Positions 11,557 through 22,147 of a stretch of DNA of 22,388 bases are shown one piece after another. A program made the position numbers and the translations under genes. This stretch comes from a virus. Under the pieces are notes generated by a model. The model was not told where the DNA came from. It did no database searches and saw only the letters and a program-made list of their open reading frames with translations. Positions within the stretch are counted from its first letter, which is position 1; each line of letters starts with the position of its first letter. The stretch spans positions 1-22,388 of IMG/VR virus record IMGVR_UViG_3300025327_000163. One strand, given 5' to 3'.

Positions 11557-11592
11557 TCTTGTCCTTCGTGAAGGGCGATATCATAAACAAGA
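11557..11592 (+). repeat. TCTTGT-N24-ACAAGA element, copy 1
   Basis: Exact 6-nt terminal inverted repeats TCTTGT (11557-11562) and ACAAGA (11587-11592) enclose exactly 24 nt. The centre contains the small inverted repeat CCTTC..GAAGG. It lies in the noncoding gap upstream of the hypothetical gene at 11630, about 540 nt from the main cluster. Confidence 0.85.
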
Positions 11593-11629
11593 CAGCAGTG
11601 AGTGGTAAGTGGGGATTAGAATAAGCAGT

Positions 11630-12121
11630 ATGAACGCACCAGAACGGCCACGGCTTTTTTCGCACCTGACTAGAACACGTTTTCTACATATCGAGGACGC
11701 CCTGGAGCGCGGGAAGCTGCGATTTTTTATTGGATCGTTCGAGAAAGGGAGAGGTTCGAACTCGACGGCGTATGCGTTCCTGGATGTGGATGATGCACGG
11801 GTGGTGCTTTCGGATCTGAGCTGGGGAAAGCCAGTGGAATTCATTGATTTCAAAGGCGGTAGAGGCTCGAATAATTTTCTGGTCTCGCGCGTGTTGAAGA
11901 TCGAGACGAAGCAGGATAAGGTTTGGATCGAGGTGCGGAATGGGCCAGGGCAGGAACTTGGAGAGGGTGCGGTCAGGCCGAATGGAAAAGGGGTCAGTGT
12001 CTCGATGCCGTTGACGATCTTCGAGGGAAGGAAGATGGGGTTTGCGTGTCTGGCTTATGTGCAGGCGTGGGAGATTGCAAAAGCAATCAGTGATCAGCAT
12101 CCAGTGATCAGTAAGCAGTAA
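11630..12121 (+). CDS. Hypothetical protein, nucleic-acid-binding-like
   Basis: 163 residues from ATG 11630 (a GTG at 11609 would add seven residues). Beta-rich with basic and aromatic residues: KLRFFIGSFEKGRG, AYAFLDVDDARVVLSDL, VEFIDFKGGRGSNNFLVSRV, VWIEVRNGPGQELGEGAV. Repeated G-R-G-S-N motifs and the five-to-six-strand layout would suit a small ssDNA/RNA-binding fold, but I recognise no family for certain. The last residues (SDQHPVISKQ) are encoded by the junction repeat CAGTGATCAG (12088-12097 and 12102-12111), suggesting that the C-terminus was recently extended into a repeat. It sits alone between the tail operon and the 36-nt repeat cluster. Confidence 0.6.
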   Translation: MNAPERPRLFSHLTRTRFLHIEDALERGKLRFFIGSFEKGRGSNSTAYAFLDVDDARVVLSDLSWGKPVEFIDFKGGRGSNNFLVSRVLKIETKQDKVWIEVRNGPGQELGEGAVRPNGKGVSVSMPLTIFEGRKMGFACLAYVQAWEIAKAISDQHPVISKQ

Positions 12122-12128
12122 GATCATA

Positions 12129-12241
12129 TCTTGTGCGCCGGCCTGGCCCGCCGGCGAAACAAGATCGTCTTGTGTAGCCAGGCCCGAGCGATCGCAAACA
12201 AGAATTCTTGTGTTCCCTGGGAGCTGTGGCCAGAAACAAGA
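12129..12241 (+). repeat. Cluster of three TCTTGT-N24-ACAAGA elements
   Basis: Exact copies at 12129-12164, 12168-12203 and 12206-12241, each 36 nt, with 6-nt terminal inverted repeats and 24-nt centres that differ almost completely from one another. Spacers are only 3 nt (TCG) and 2 nt (AT), so neighbouring ends form palindromes ACAAGA-TCG-TCTTGT and ACAAGA-AT-TCTTGT. The first centre is itself a strong hairpin (CGCCGGC/GCCGGCG). No coding capacity. Confidence 0.9.
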
Positions 12242-12317
12242 ATTTCGTGACCACAGGAAGCTCCAGGACGCACGCAGTGGAGTCGGGCCATATCGCAGCA
12301 CCCCCAAGAATCCGAGA

Positions 12318-12336
12318 TCCTTCGCTTCGCTCAGGA
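12318..12336. repeat. TCCTTCGCTTCGCTCAGGA dispersed-repeat-like motif
   Basis: A 19-nt imperfect palindrome with TCCT/AGGA ends. From memory, the reverse complement (CTGAGCGAAGCGAAGGA type) is a short repeat found in many unrelated bacterial genomes; I cannot verify this here. It directly precedes a half-element TCTTGT at 12341. Confidence 0.45.
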
Positions 12337-12390
12337 CAAGTCTTGTGTGGAATTAATTGGCCAATGTGCCGTTTCAGGAAAGATTGGCTT

Positions 12391-12472
12391 TCTTGTGCGC
12401 TGCATGCCGTTCCAGGAATTACAAGATAATCTTGTTTCTTGTTTCGTGGATCCGCAGCTGAGCAGAACAAGA
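12391..12472 (+). repeat. Two TCTTGT-N24-ACAAGA elements, second with duplicated end
   Basis: Exact 36-nt copies at 12391-12426 and 12437-12472. The spacer contains an extra TCTTGT at 12430-12435, seven nt upstream of the second copy's own start, so a 43-nt alternative (12430-12472) also ends in ACAAGA. An upstream TCTTGT at 12341 pairs only with a degenerate GAAAGA at 12378-12383, again 43 nt end to end. Confidence 0.88.
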
Positions 12473-12677
12473 CCCCTGCCCCTCCGGGGATTTTGAGCTG
12501 AGCAGTTATATCGCGTAGCCACTATAGCCCTCTCCGAACCTGAGGGCATTTGTGTGGCTGGTTGGGGCGGGAGGGGGCTGCGCCCACCCGGAAGACGCGA
12601 GGCTCCGATCCCCCCGGCGCGCGTGCTGAGTGACTACACGCGCTCGAATCGAGGTACTAGAACATATAATCAGTGTT

Positions 12678-12693
12678 TGATATAATGAGCGCA
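12678..12693 (+). promoter_or_regulatory. Extended -10 promoter, probably leaderless start
   Basis: TGATATAAT at 12678-12686 is a perfect extended -10 (TG-n-TATAAT). The ATG at 12693 lies 6 nt after the hexamer, where transcription should begin, so the mRNA may start with AUG. The -35 region (TAGAAC at 12658-12663) is weak, as expected for extended -10 promoters. A second TATAAT at 12665-12670 may be an alternative. Confidence 0.55.
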
Positions 12694-12929
12694 TGGTACT
12701 GCAACTGGAACTGCTGATGGAAGAAATAATTATGACCACTGCCGAGGTCGCGAGGAAGTTGAACGTGACACAAACAACCATCAGCGTATGGATTAATTCG
12801 GGTTTCTTTCCCAACGCGTTCAAGCTCAGTCCAAAACCGAAATCCCCCTGGCGAATCCCAAAAAGCGACGTGGATGCATTTATCGAGAAACGCCGCCAAC
12901 AGCGCGGCTTTTTTTATACCGTGAATTGA
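12693..12929 (+). CDS. Excisionase/MerR-type helix-turn-helix protein
   Basis: 78 residues. TTAEVARKLNVTQTTISVWI is the helix-turn-helix of the Xis/HTH_17 family, followed by the wing (WRIPKSDVDAFIEKRR) whose R-I-P-x-x-D-V-x-x-F/F-I ending is typical. ATG 12693 is chosen because it coincides with the expected transcription start; ATGs at 12717 and 12732 (MTTAEV) are alternatives without a strong Shine-Dalgarno. Proteins of this type act as recombination directionality factors or small regulators. It is 1 kb from the integration site and flanked on both sides by the 36-nt repeats, so it is a candidate partner for those sites. Confidence 0.82.
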   Translation: MVLQLELLMEEIIMTTAEVARKLNVTQTTISVWINSGFFPNAFKLSPKPKSPWRIPKSDVDAFIEKRRQQRGFFYTVN

Positions 12930-12938
12930 TGCTCAATG

Positions 12939-13051
12939 TCTTGTGCGCCGGCGTGGCCAGCGGTGGAAACAAGATCAATCGCGCGATCCCGACGTCGGGA
13001 TCGCGCGATGTCTTATCTTGTATGCCTGGCGCCCGCAGCTCGGGGACAAGA
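12939..13051 (+). repeat. Two TCTTGT-N24-ACAAGA elements flanking a palindrome
   Basis: Exact copies at 12939-12974 and 13016-13051. Between them lie exactly 36 nt (12975-13010) containing a 32-nt perfect palindrome, then TCTTA and the second element. The first copy shares its opening 13 nt (TCTTGTGCGCCGG) with the copies at 12129 and 22112. The pair separates the convergent ends of the + strand helix-turn-helix gene and the - strand DUF6941-like gene, so the hairpins might also terminate transcription. Confidence 0.9.
12978..13009. repeat. 32-nt perfect palindrome
   Basis: Left arm ATCGCGCGATCCCGAC (12978-12993) is followed at once by its exact reverse complement GTCGGGATCGCGCGAT (12994-13009), with no loop. 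It contains nested smaller palindromes (ATCGCGCGAT at each end, CCCGACGTCGGG in the centre). It could extrude as a cruciform, or form a strong RNA hairpin between convergent genes; no U-tract follows on either strand. Confidence 0.92.
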
Positions 13052-13073
13052 TTTGCGATGCGCTAAAATATGA

Positions 13074-13457
13074 TCAGGTGAAAGAAAGGAATTCTCTATG
13101 GCGAACAACATCATTCAAAAGTATTTCCACCGTGTAGCGGCCCGGTTCCGGAATTTCAATTTCTGGAAGCTGACTAAAGAACCCAAATTCGCGGGAGGAT
13201 CCAGTGGGCGAGTCGGAGATGAGGGGCCGCGGCGCGCTCTCGAATATATTCTCTCCGTCGGGGTTCCTGATGCGGATGGAAATCAAGTGGTGAAGCGGTT
13301 CACTGTGGATGATTTTGTCAATGACGATGGTACACCCAAAAAGATATGGATAAATCTCCACTTTCACGCTGCTAAACCGGTTGACAAATGAGAATGGCGA
13401 GCCATCGGGGTTATGAATTACTTTTTCGCAAAAGAAGATCTCTCCAAAATTAATCAT
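13074..13457 (-). CDS. DUF6941-like protein
   Basis: 127 residues from ATG 13455-13457 on the minus strand, chosen because of the strong Shine-Dalgarno (TTGGAGA, 5 nt upstream). The protein is beta-rich: FGEIFFCEKVIHNPDGSPFS, a conserved central HHLISIRIRNPDGENIFE strand pair, and a C-terminal EPGRYTVEILLNDVVRHREF that closely fits the 'PGRYxxxIxxDGxxxxxxPF' ending of the DUF6941 family. The function of that family is unknown. The opposite strand has an open frame (13098-13391) with its own Shine-Dalgarno, but its translation resembles nothing. This is the only minus-strand gene left of the integration site. Confidence 0.68.
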   Translation of the reverse strand: MINFGEIFFCEKVIHNPDGSPFSFVNRFSSVKVEIYPYLFGCTIVIDKIIHSEPLHHLISIRIRNPDGENIFESAPRPLISDSPTGSSREFGFFSQLPEIEIPEPGRYTVEILLNDVVRHREFLSFT

Positions 13458-13495
13458 GCTTTCTCCAATTGGACGCTTCGCAGTGCGAAAACGAT

Positions 13496-13538
13496 TCTTG
13501 TATCTTCTTAGCCGGATCGCCGTCTCAGATATACAAGA
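13496..13538 (+). repeat. TCTTGT/ACAAGA element, 43-nt variant
   Basis: TCTTGT at 13496-13501 and ACAAGA at 13533-13538 are 43 nt end to end. A degenerate inner start TCTTCT at 13503-13508 restores the standard 36-nt length (13503-13538). It lies upstream of the DUF6941-like gene and just before the promoter of the next helix-turn-helix gene. Confidence 0.7.
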
Positions 13539-13556: not shown

Positions 13557-13592
13557 TTGACGGCAAGGGACAAGCAGGATAAGATGTCCGTA
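13557..13592 (+). promoter_or_regulatory. Sigma70-type promoter, leaderless for the next gene
   Basis: -35 TTGACG (13557-13562), a 17-nt spacer, and -10 TAAGAT (13580-13585). The ATG at 13592 is 6 nt after the -10, so transcription should start on or next to the A of the start codon. No Shine-Dalgarno is present between promoter and ATG. The geometry equals that of the promoter at 12678. Confidence 0.65.
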
Positions 13593-13810
13593 TGACTAAA
13601 ACAGACCTGATGACAGTTTCACAATTCGCAGCCAAGATTGGTGTCGCCCGCAATACAGTTAGCCGATGGGTGCAGTCCGGCAAGGTGAAGGGATTCAAGA
13701 AGGATCCTTTCAACGGCAGGACCTCACCCGTTTTTATTCCGGTCAGCGAGCTCGAGCGCGTGCTAAAGCTCATGGCTGAAAACGAGCAGGGTCTCTCTGA
13801 TCAATCCTAG
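13592..13810 (+). CDS. Excisionase-like helix-turn-helix protein next to att site
   Basis: 72 residues. MTVSQFAAKIGVARNTVSRW is an Xis/HTH_17 helix-turn-helix; a wing follows (VKGFKKDPFNGRTSPVFIPV) and the SELERVLKLM helix ends it, as in small DNA-bending excisionases. The gene ends about 110 nt from the tRNA-derived attachment site and 190 nt from the integrase stop, so it is the best candidate for the recombination directionality factor. Alternatively it regulates the integrase. It appears to be translated from a leaderless mRNA. Confidence 0.82.
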   Translation: MTKTDLMTVSQFAAKIGVARNTVSRWVQSGKVKGFKKDPFNGRTSPVFIPVSELERVLKLMAENEQGLSDQS

Positions 13811-13916: not shown

Positions 13917-13968
13917 GCGGGTGATGGGACTCGAACCCACGATATCTTGCTTGGGAAGCAAGCGCTCT
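13917..13968 (-). tRNA. tRNA-Gly(CCC) 3' fragment (integration site, not a complete tRNA)
   Basis: On the minus strand the sequence contains, in order, the 3' half of a D stem (GAGC), an anticodon arm CTTGC-TTCCCAA-GCAAG with anticodon CCC, a variable loop ATATC, a T arm GTGGG-TTCGAGT-CCCAT, the 3' acceptor strand CACCCGC, and a U discriminator at 13916, as expected for bacterial tRNA-Gly. The 5' acceptor strand and most of the D arm are missing: upstream the sequence becomes a second copy of the anticodon arm. It is therefore a tRNA-derived att sequence rather than a functional gene. Confidence 0.88.
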
Positions 13969-13978
13969 TGCTTGGGAA
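13945..13978. other. Probable att core: anticodon-arm inverted repeat plus 13-bp direct repeat
   Basis: Plus strand CTTGC-TTGGGAA-GCAAG (13946-13962) is an inverted repeat with a 7-nt centre, the usual form of a tyrosine recombinase core with a 7-bp overlap placed on the anticodon loop. The 13-mer TCTTGCTTGGGAA is repeated at 13945-13957 and 13966-13978 (21-bp period). Two more inverted repeats follow: GGAAC..GTTCC (13975-13989) and AATCAAG..CTTGATT (13992-14011, spanning the integrase stop). The crossover position is inferred. Confidence 0.6.
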
Positions 13979-13998
13979 CAACTAGTTCCACAATCAAG

Positions 13999-21735: not shown

Positions 21736-22107
21736 ATGGACGAATTGAAAGTCAACGGCGTGCAATATCGCCAGCAATATCGCAAATGTGGAAAGCCAGG
21801 TTGCAAGTGCAACACCGGCGAGGGACACGGTCCCTACTGGTATGGCTATGATGGCAACAGCGCGGCGAAGTACGTGGGCATCCAGTTGCCTGAGCATGTC
21901 ACGAAGCACTTAGCGCTGCTCAAGGCGAGCAGGGAAAAGCTGAAGGCCATCAAAGAGAAGATCTCGAAGCGACGTGATGATCTGTATGAATCTTATCGCA
22001 AGGCTGATCGTGAGCTGAGTGCGGTGCGGGCGCTCGAGGCAGGGGAGCGGGTTGATTCGCGGATGCTGAAGTCTTTGGGGCTTGCTCAATTCAACGGGAA
22101 GCAGTGA
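21736..22107 (+). CDS. DUF6788-like protein
   Basis: 123 residues, preceded by AGGAGG (21725-21730). The start region QQYRKCGKPGCKCNTGEGHG, then PYWYGYDGNSAAKYVGI, matches the pattern of DUF6788 and related transposon- or phage-associated proteins: C-G-K-x-x-C-x-C, then H-G-P-Y-W/Y and a basic strand. Cys and His here could bind zinc. A long charged coiled-coil follows (LLKASREKLKAIKEKISKRR). The function of the family is unknown; it often occurs in mobile elements as a DNA-associated protein. Confidence 0.72.
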   Translation: MDELKVNGVQYRQQYRKCGKPGCKCNTGEGHGPYWYGYDGNSAAKYVGIQLPEHVTKHLALLKASREKLKAIKEKISKRRDDLYESYRKADRELSAVRALEAGERVDSRMLKSLGLAQFNGKQ

Positions 22108-22111
22108 GCAG

Positions 22112-22147
22112 TCTTGTGCGCCGGTGATCATCTGGCCATAAACAAGA
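22112..22147 (+). repeat. TCTTGT-N24-ACAAGA element, distal copy
   Basis: An exact 36-nt copy, 4 nt after the DUF6788-like gene stop and 14 nt before the next gene. It shares TCTTGTGCGCCGG with the copies at 12129 and 12939 and ends in ATAAACAAGA like the copy at 11557. It lies over 8.5 kb from the main cluster, on the other side of the integration site. Confidence 0.88.

Follow-up and report, generated by a model that had tools for sequence, protein, structure and literature searches.

Fixed-length TCTTGT-N24-ACAAGA elements in a virus genome and their linkage to genes of protein family DUF6788

The 22,388-base virus record IMGVR_UViG_3300025327_000163, analysed here over its whole length and referred to as the window, carries a family of 36-bp elements with invariant inverted ends and a fixed spacing, TCTTGT-N24-ACAAGA, which recurs in related viral records and is linked to genes of the Pfam family DUF6788 (PF20586). 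Judged from sequence comparison, the elements are somewhat more probably than otherwise dispersed sites bound by the phage's own DUF6788 protein, which would act as a dimer clamping the two half-sites and form a regulatory system.

Nine exact copies, against a chance expectation of about 0.001 (22,388/4^12), were found at exactly the positions listed in the first-pass annotation: 11557-11592 (with GATATC in its centre), 12129-12164, 12168-12203, 12206-12241, 12391-12426, 12437-12472, 12939-12974, 13016-13051 and 22112-22147. The second lies 7 bp 3' of the stop of an open reading frame (ORF) at 11609-12121 and is followed in tandem by the next two, with gaps of 3 and 2 bp. The last follows the stop codon of the DUF6788 gene at a distance of 4 bp, and a near-identical centre (two of 24 bases differ) was encountered between unrelated flanks in phage G007. 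Two degenerate copies had also been proposed: the one at 13503-13538 stood, with a single mismatch in its left end and an exact TCTTGT at 13496, while the one at 12341 turned out to be a lone half-site. Over all spacings from N0 to N59, the window displayed only N31 apart from N24, namely at 12430, where an extra TCTTGT (12430-12435, plus strand) 7 bp outside element 12437 creates this register, and at 13496, where the ACAAGA of the degenerate copy serves as right end. As originally stated, the copies are noncoding, lying outside ORFs accepted as genes; a minus-strand open frame of 120 aa crossing 12129-12470 was taken as a shadow frame. A GC-rich long palindrome (CGCGCGATCCCGACGTCGGGATCGCGCG), noticed by reading at 12976-13012 between elements 12939 and 13016, was regarded as a terminator or another site.

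In 20 related records (342,380 bp, partly overlapping), most of them retrieved by scans requiring an N24 or N23 element so that the spacing peak is partly built in, the two half-sites were paired 16 times at N23, 109 times at N24, seven times at N30, nine times at N31 and once at N32, with 0.02 expected per spacing. No pair occurred at N20-22 or N25-29, and 94 of the 109 N24 elements were distinct by centre and flanks. Among records chosen otherwise, the window displayed nine N24 elements and the contig L093 seven. Two records scanned whole from N20 to N34 contained seven N23, five N24, one N30 and one N31 (G319) and two N24, one N23, one N30 and one N31 (G313); a record reached via its integrase had the same spacing classes. 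Since records not selected by N24 show the same classes, an equal frequency of all spacings from N20 to N28, the outcome against which the first-pass annotation had asked the spacing to be checked, was ruled out. Outer half-sites making N31 were found four times beside the 109 N24 elements, against 0.05 expected. Permuted half-site controls in the 20 records gave up to 14 pairs at some spacing (mean 1.3), a maximum that may represent the same elements in a shifted register (CTTGTT-N22 is seen). Two N31 elements, G005:30426 and L056:2215, have CGCGCGGAAAACAAGACG in common as their right half and resemble each other in the left flank; they may represent a genuine promoter operator in the longer register.

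A scan of viral contigs for two N24 elements at most 30 bp apart yielded 21 stretches; the same tandem scan of a genome collection (84,980 species) yielded two matches, titled Chloroflexi bacterium and Thermoflexales bacterium. Exact N24 copies numbered 8, 8, 11, 11 and 15 in five records of 37-40 kb. In the search of Chloroflexota genomes suggested earlier, any match was present in 31 of 298 genomes of the host class versus about 60 (table count) matching a reversed control, so that hosts in general are not enriched, and clusters among hosts were confined to G001 and G002 (from the tandem scan) and G259 (from the 298-genome draw). The seven matches in G259 lie on one 17.3-kb contig (L093, that is G259:C27, 1-17319) whose 141-base terminal repeat reduces them to six distinct N24 sites on a presumably circular element. 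This 17.2-kb element of a Chloroflexota genome carries integrase-like, FtsK-like and DUF6788 genes, and the ends of its N24 sites are extended to TCTTGTG/CACAAGA. The element-bearing viruses probably infect Chloroflexota; the search for an annotated phage relative found none, with matches to the integrase only, below 60% identity. Chance or an assembly artefact, in favour of which only the metagenomic origin of most records could be brought forward, deserves practically no credence: it is already contradicted by the spacing peak (109 vs 0.02 expected), by the different IMG project numbers of the records, and by G259, one of 298 class genomes, with its seven copies on one contig.

The gene at 21736-22107 (plus strand) encodes a DUF6788 protein of 123 aa (Pfam 43.9 bits, cut-off 27.2), the proposed element-binding protein. 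Besides DUF6788, Pfam returned only a marginal YlqD match for it and NCBIfam returned none; no transposase family or motif was detected. Its linkage to the elements was first noticed in the window and L093, and was then tested on 33 records. DUF6788 was present in 12 of 23 element-bearing records and in none of ten integrase-related records without N23/N24 elements; these ten controls, scanned whole, contained a single N26 (G323) and no N23 or N24. Of the 11 element-bearing records without DUF6788, ten were fragments of 4-12 kb and the other, G313, measured 21 kb; in virus records of at least 21 kb with elements the gene was found in seven out of eight (the window and G006 being one phage). 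All three element-bearing host genomes displayed DUF6788 on the contig of the elements, a few hundred bases away in two of them; the G259 match was under the Pfam cut-off (24.8 vs 27.2 bits). Among 21 window proteins tested, DUF6788 alone also reached L094 and L095.

The 3' end of the gene abutted or overlapped an element in 11 of the 13 genes examined. In eight, an N24 element lay 0-6 bp 3' of the stop, and in three the 3' part of the ORF was overlapped (by one N24 in L093, two N24 in L094 and an N31 in G319); the remaining two were a second copy in G006, with the nearest element at 189 bp, and the gene of G004, with none within 600 bp. As the window and G006 have the same sequence, and G008 and G014 are near-identical, fewer than 13 of these genes are independent.

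A profile of ten DUF6788 proteins matched 58 of 400 genomes of the phylum. When 15 chromosomal DUF6788 genes were inspected, nine proved to have a CTTAGGTAAC-gcgtg-like-TATAAT promoter (TTAGGTAAC only in L123), often after ttgacct, and five of these nine also had a second inverted half, GTTACCTAAG. The arrangement TTAGGTAAC-N14..24-GTTACCTAA, first noticed around TATAAT at these five DUF6788 promoters, was present once, and nowhere else, in each of the genomes concerned; it was absent from all 35 others searched, 15 of them with DUF6788. These chromosomal repeats emerged only on targeted inspection: an unbiased hexamer scan of 18 stretches at chromosomal DUF6788 gave no inverted-repeat family of at least three copies except weak triples in L131 and L133. 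Five loci (L119, L121, L127, L130 and L131) were without a CTTAGGTAAC repeat, their true promoters being covered by the repeat list only, as the start had been taken inside the gene. In the viral loci L142-L146, CTTATGTAAG and CTTACATAAG flank a TATA-like box of the DUF6788 promoter (L143 has CTTACAGAAG, with one mismatch), and each locus contains 5-13 exact CTTANNTAAG, against about 0.1-0.2 expected, many of them inside the ORF and partly as 15-bp tandems. Half-sites CTTACMTAAGAC were noticed within DUF6788 coding sequence (L142:1-742, L143:4676-5089, L144:4750-5150, L145:4626-5030 and L146:5938-6407). They form 15-bp in-frame tandem repeats in L143 and L146 (SLPKT/PLPKT peptides), and at the start of L142 a variant (CKDVF) forms a tandem array of 15-bp units. 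The outer spans of these promoter repeats were 41, 41 and 42 bp in three chromosomal cases and 37 bp in two, and 41 bp in viruses (43 in L143); the phage elements measure 35-36 bp at N23/N24 and 42-43 bp at N30/N31.

At three loci elsewhere in the phylum, DUF6788 preceded Trans_reg_C (under the cut-off at two of them), BTAD and AAA domains in the same protein, an order which we take to be the layout of AfsR/SARP-like regulators. It is found at the N-terminus of large BTAD/AAA regulators in other Chloroflexota (L157, L159, L162, L165 and others), often with four matches per genome. The gene-repeat linkage across phages, a circular element and host genomes, the promoter inverted repeats of TCTTA-like form in two further lineages and the regulator fusions make DUF6788 the likely reader of the element ends. 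Of the proposals in the first-pass annotation, a site bound by protein, whose ends and spacing are under selection, remained the best supported; DUF6788 is a likelier partner than the helix-turn-helix (HTH) proteins encoded beside the cluster, which it had put forward for a binding test.

The window protein displays conserved residues C18, C23, C25 and H31 in a beta-sheet domain, a putative metal site, followed by a long helix; its structural model (pLDDT 92) shows four strands and two helices, one of them 36 residues long. DUF6788 would dimerize via the long C-terminal helix and apply one beta-sheet domain to each TCTTGT half-site. The half-sites are 30 bp apart, about three turns, which would impose fixed ends and length, and a dimer held by a rigid helix would thus explain the fixed spacing. 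A longer register (N30/N31, 6-7 bp more) also exists and comes near the span of most promoter repeats of DUF6788 relatives. Sites of this kind, mostly between genes, often just after stop codons and either single or in tandem 2-3 bp apart, would most likely serve as operators or roadblocks by which DUF6788 controls the transcription of accessory modules, and would spread as 36-bp units or half-units.

Several observations weigh against this proposal. G313, a 21-kb record with five N23-N31 elements, is without DUF6788, and may be incomplete. Only seven of 16 viral DUF6788 loci found by protein alone were on element-bearing records; the other nine were on records without any TCTTGT-N20..34-ACAAGA, and four of those nine (L147-L150) displayed no related repeat near DUF6788. 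No element was found upstream of phage DUF6788 genes, with little upstream sequence for G005 and G008, so that autoregulation finds no support in phages. Among the 15 chromosomal genes, the promoter half-site is likewise far from general, being restricted to nine, with both halves in five, and the two chromosomal spans (41-42 bp and 37 bp) are unpredicted by a single ruler, so that more than one register must be allowed. Comparison of the fold with known DNA-binding domains gave no convincing match and no Foldseek hit with E below 0.001. Of the folds considered (MBD/AP2/integrase-arm and PUR-repeat), MBD domains reached Z 2.1-2.2 and PUR repeats Z 2.9-3.1, and at Z 2-3 no fold claim is made; a sequence search of solved structures gave nothing under E 0.5. 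Finally, a binding site accounts for the fixed ends and length and not for the palindromic vocabulary of the centres.

In five phages, 45 of 56 N23/N24 elements were located outside ORFs supported by homology; such ORFs make up 38-81% of each genome. A gene caller maximizing ORF length, which called 64 of 99 elements coding, was set aside because it accepted shadow frames. In 23 of 64 element clusters an end lay 0-12 bp after the stop of an approaching ORF of at least 100 aa, compared with 3% of random windows, a contrast that is overstated as these windows included coding DNA. Where another TCTTGT followed within 80 bp, it did so after 2-3 bp on 47 of the 85 flank sides.

Flanks and centres bear on an earlier suggestion, the minimal mobile cassette, according to which a recombinase or transposase, which may be DUF6788 itself, copies the 36-bp unit, with regulation secondary. 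Near-identical elements (centres differing at 1-4 of 24 bases) recur in unrelated flanks both between phages and within one phage (L022 1927/10527; G005 19471/32539; G004 4056/24452). In 25 of 29 such pairs, some of which repeat the same phage, neither flank exceeded the 95% level found for random pairs, and this part of the suggestion stands. The 12-bp arms also recur with different partners, in 34 half-sharing pairs, both flanks being at the 95% level in 28; near-identical ten-base arms gave 248 pairs against 22 in column shuffles. Copying as the primary function is nevertheless rather improbable. Target-site duplications were absent, flank repeats being at or near chance (n = 2-9), and DUF6788 is without transposase motif or family, so that this side of the suggestion found no support. 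Moreover, four of the 29 pairs have one flank more alike than the 95% level, copies in different flanks are seldom identical, and the pairing of unlike arms and the kept palindromes show selection beyond copying.

The centres, first described as unrelated, are combinatorial and constrained: they consist of a limited set of dyad-symmetric words at about three places, with arms shared between elements. Two window centres already have 19 of 24 bases in common. The vocabulary was studied in 88 distinct N24 centres, or 48 after similarity removal (49 in a slightly different list used for folding and word counts). Six-bp palindromes amounted to 1.58 per centre versus 0.41 in shuffles (four times more) and 0.30 in the rest of the phage genomes. 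Along the 36 bp, their positions formed broad peaks near 12.5 and 24.5 and a sharp one at 18.5, with counts of 20, 20 and 18, respectively, against 1.5 expected (both strands); the neighbouring positions 13.5 and 11.5 gave 17 and 11, and the pattern of three places was also present in a set of 76 centres. Only 22 of the 64 possible 6-bp palindromes occurred in the 49 centres. Eight four-base palindromes (CCGG, GATC, AGCT, GCGC, GGCC, TCGA, TGCA and ATAT) were over-used 1.6-4.7 times, and CCWGG was found 21 times versus 5. The other eight of the 16 four-base palindromes occurred eight times in all, against 22.3 expected, and a generic self-complementarity, as in pairing between copies, is therefore disfavoured. 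Many of the words presumably correspond to common type II restriction or methylation sites (CCGG, GATC, AGCT, GCGC, GGCC, TCGA, CTGCAG, GATATC and CCWGG). By inspection, N23, N30 and N31 elements displayed a similar vocabulary.

Palindromes were also kept where centres diverged. In 45 centre pairs with 1-6 differences, palindromes covered 17.7 of 24 bp versus 10.7 (sd 0.74) under random substitution, a value reached in none of 500 simulations, the pairs being non-independent and the simulation without mutation bias. The two arms of one element were less alike than random pairs (distance 7.74 versus 7.00, sd 0.17; 0 of 2,000). Restriction of the centres to a small dyad-word vocabulary makes a second, dimeric reader likely, or another constraint. 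There is a slender chance that the element is composite and address-like, DUF6788 clamping its constant ends and the centre carrying about three words of the vocabulary, with the words shuffled between elements and the two arms of one element kept unlike. More speculatively, the centre may report DNA-modifying or dyad-binding proteins of the host, so that phage regulation would respond to the identity of the host or to methylation of the DNA.

Folding of the element into an RNA or single-stranded DNA hairpin, with a 6-bp stem and a 24-nt loop, had been considered as well. Pairing of the ends is possible in each copy (mean pair probability 0.59-0.93), but they are invariant and so display no covariation. 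The centres folded slightly worse than shuffled ones (mean z +0.38 as RNA and +0.26 as DNA), for which reason folding of the centre was rejected; their vocabulary is biased rather than generically self-complementary, and Rfam 15 gave no match above the gathering score in the window. The hairpin explanation is very improbable.

Sites for partition, packaging or replication, bound by a centromere-like or genome-organising DUF6788 complex, constitute another explanation, to which we would give little credit. Clusters and single sites are spread over genomes of 37-40 kb, iteron-like half-site arrays are found at DUF6788 in L142-L146, and in both the window and L093 DUF6788 shares its part of the genome with an FtsK-like gene. 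On the other hand, the FtsK-like gene had no match in the element-bearing G003, G004 and G319, the scanned proteins included no partition NTPase, and DUF6788 relatives are fused to transcription regulator domains.

The genes flanking the main cluster had been described as two Xis-like genes and a DUF6941-like gene. The former were recovered as an HTH_17/Xis-like protein inside the cluster (12693-12929, plus strand) and an HTH_17/Cox-like protein beside it (13592-13810, plus strand), while neither of the neighbouring orphan ORFs had a Pfam match, so that the DUF6941-like assignment was not retained. That the elements are sites for these HTH_17 proteins, in excision or its control, is suggested by the position of both genes and by homologues of the 13592 protein, which were found in six records with elements, namely G004-G007 (G006 being the window's own phage) and those of L056 and L063, and in none of the ten element-free ones (parts compared). 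It is an improbable explanation: the 12693 protein also has homologues in three of the ten element-free records (parts compared), both HTH genes are absent from the element-bearing L094 and L095, and G003, with 11 elements, has no integrase match and no 13592 homologue. One of the orphan ORFs, of 170 aa (11609-12121, plus strand), lies 3' of element 11557. Each of the seven larger phage records with elements that were compared (G003-G007 and the records of L063 and L056) contained it, as opposed to none of the ten element-free ones (parts compared), and its product is a possible further partner. Directly before the integrase gene, a stretch resembling the 3' half of a tRNA was recognised by eye at 13918-13990 and is probably the attachment site; ARAGORN found no complete tRNA in the window.

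A protein family of unknown function is thus tied to DNA repeats in phages, at chromosomal promoters and in viruses with TATA-like promoters, which provides a testable DNA-protein pair and possibly a new phage control system. If a second reader exists, the elements would represent a modular operator design, of which none was found in the literature searched; nor did that literature yield a description of DUF6788, its motif or repeats of Chloroflexota phages. Among known systems, stoperators are, according to PMC9283540, protein-binding sites numbering more than 20 per temperate phage, located in promoters and short intergenic spaces and bound by one phage protein. The stoperators of cluster A mycobacteriophages (L5-type) resemble the present elements as multiple, mostly intergenic sites across a phage genome. 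They are, however, near-constant 13-bp asymmetric consensus sites oriented with transcription and bound by a monomeric HTH immunity repressor that halts elongation, whereas the elements combine 6-bp inverted symmetric ends at a fixed distance of 24 bp with a variable, word-built centre and a predicted DUF6788 partner. SAS/ESAS repeats of cluster K mycobacteriophages are intergenic, spread over the whole phage genome and composed of inverted halves around a spacer; they lie before start codons and are variable in spacing, whereas the spacing of the elements is fixed and they often follow stop codons. Miniature inverted-repeat transposable elements (MITEs) similarly have terminal inverted repeats and unrelated flanks, but the elements measure only 36 bp, have no target-site duplication and no known transposase, and display a constrained combinatorial centre.

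REP/BIME, as characterised in PMC2817692, are short intergenic palindromic repeats occurring in clusters and linked to one gene flanked by them at its borders, with compensating changes that keep the palindromes. The elements are also short, intergenic, clustered and gene-linked, with palindromes kept. RAYT is an IS200/IS605-related transposase encoded between two REPs, whereas DUF6788 is without such a domain and has elements usually on one side: within 600 bp they were found only 3' of or inside the DUF6788 ORF (upstream sequence is short in G005 and G008). REPs are, furthermore, near-perfect palindromes with more than 100 copies per host genome, whereas the elements number 8-15 per phage, their centres do not fold and only their 6-bp ends could pair. 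By this comparison, the system appears nearest to stoperators in function and to REP/RAYT in genetics while fitting neither; the elements would belong to the known kind of dispersed phage protein-binding sites, and the code of their centres may be categorically new.

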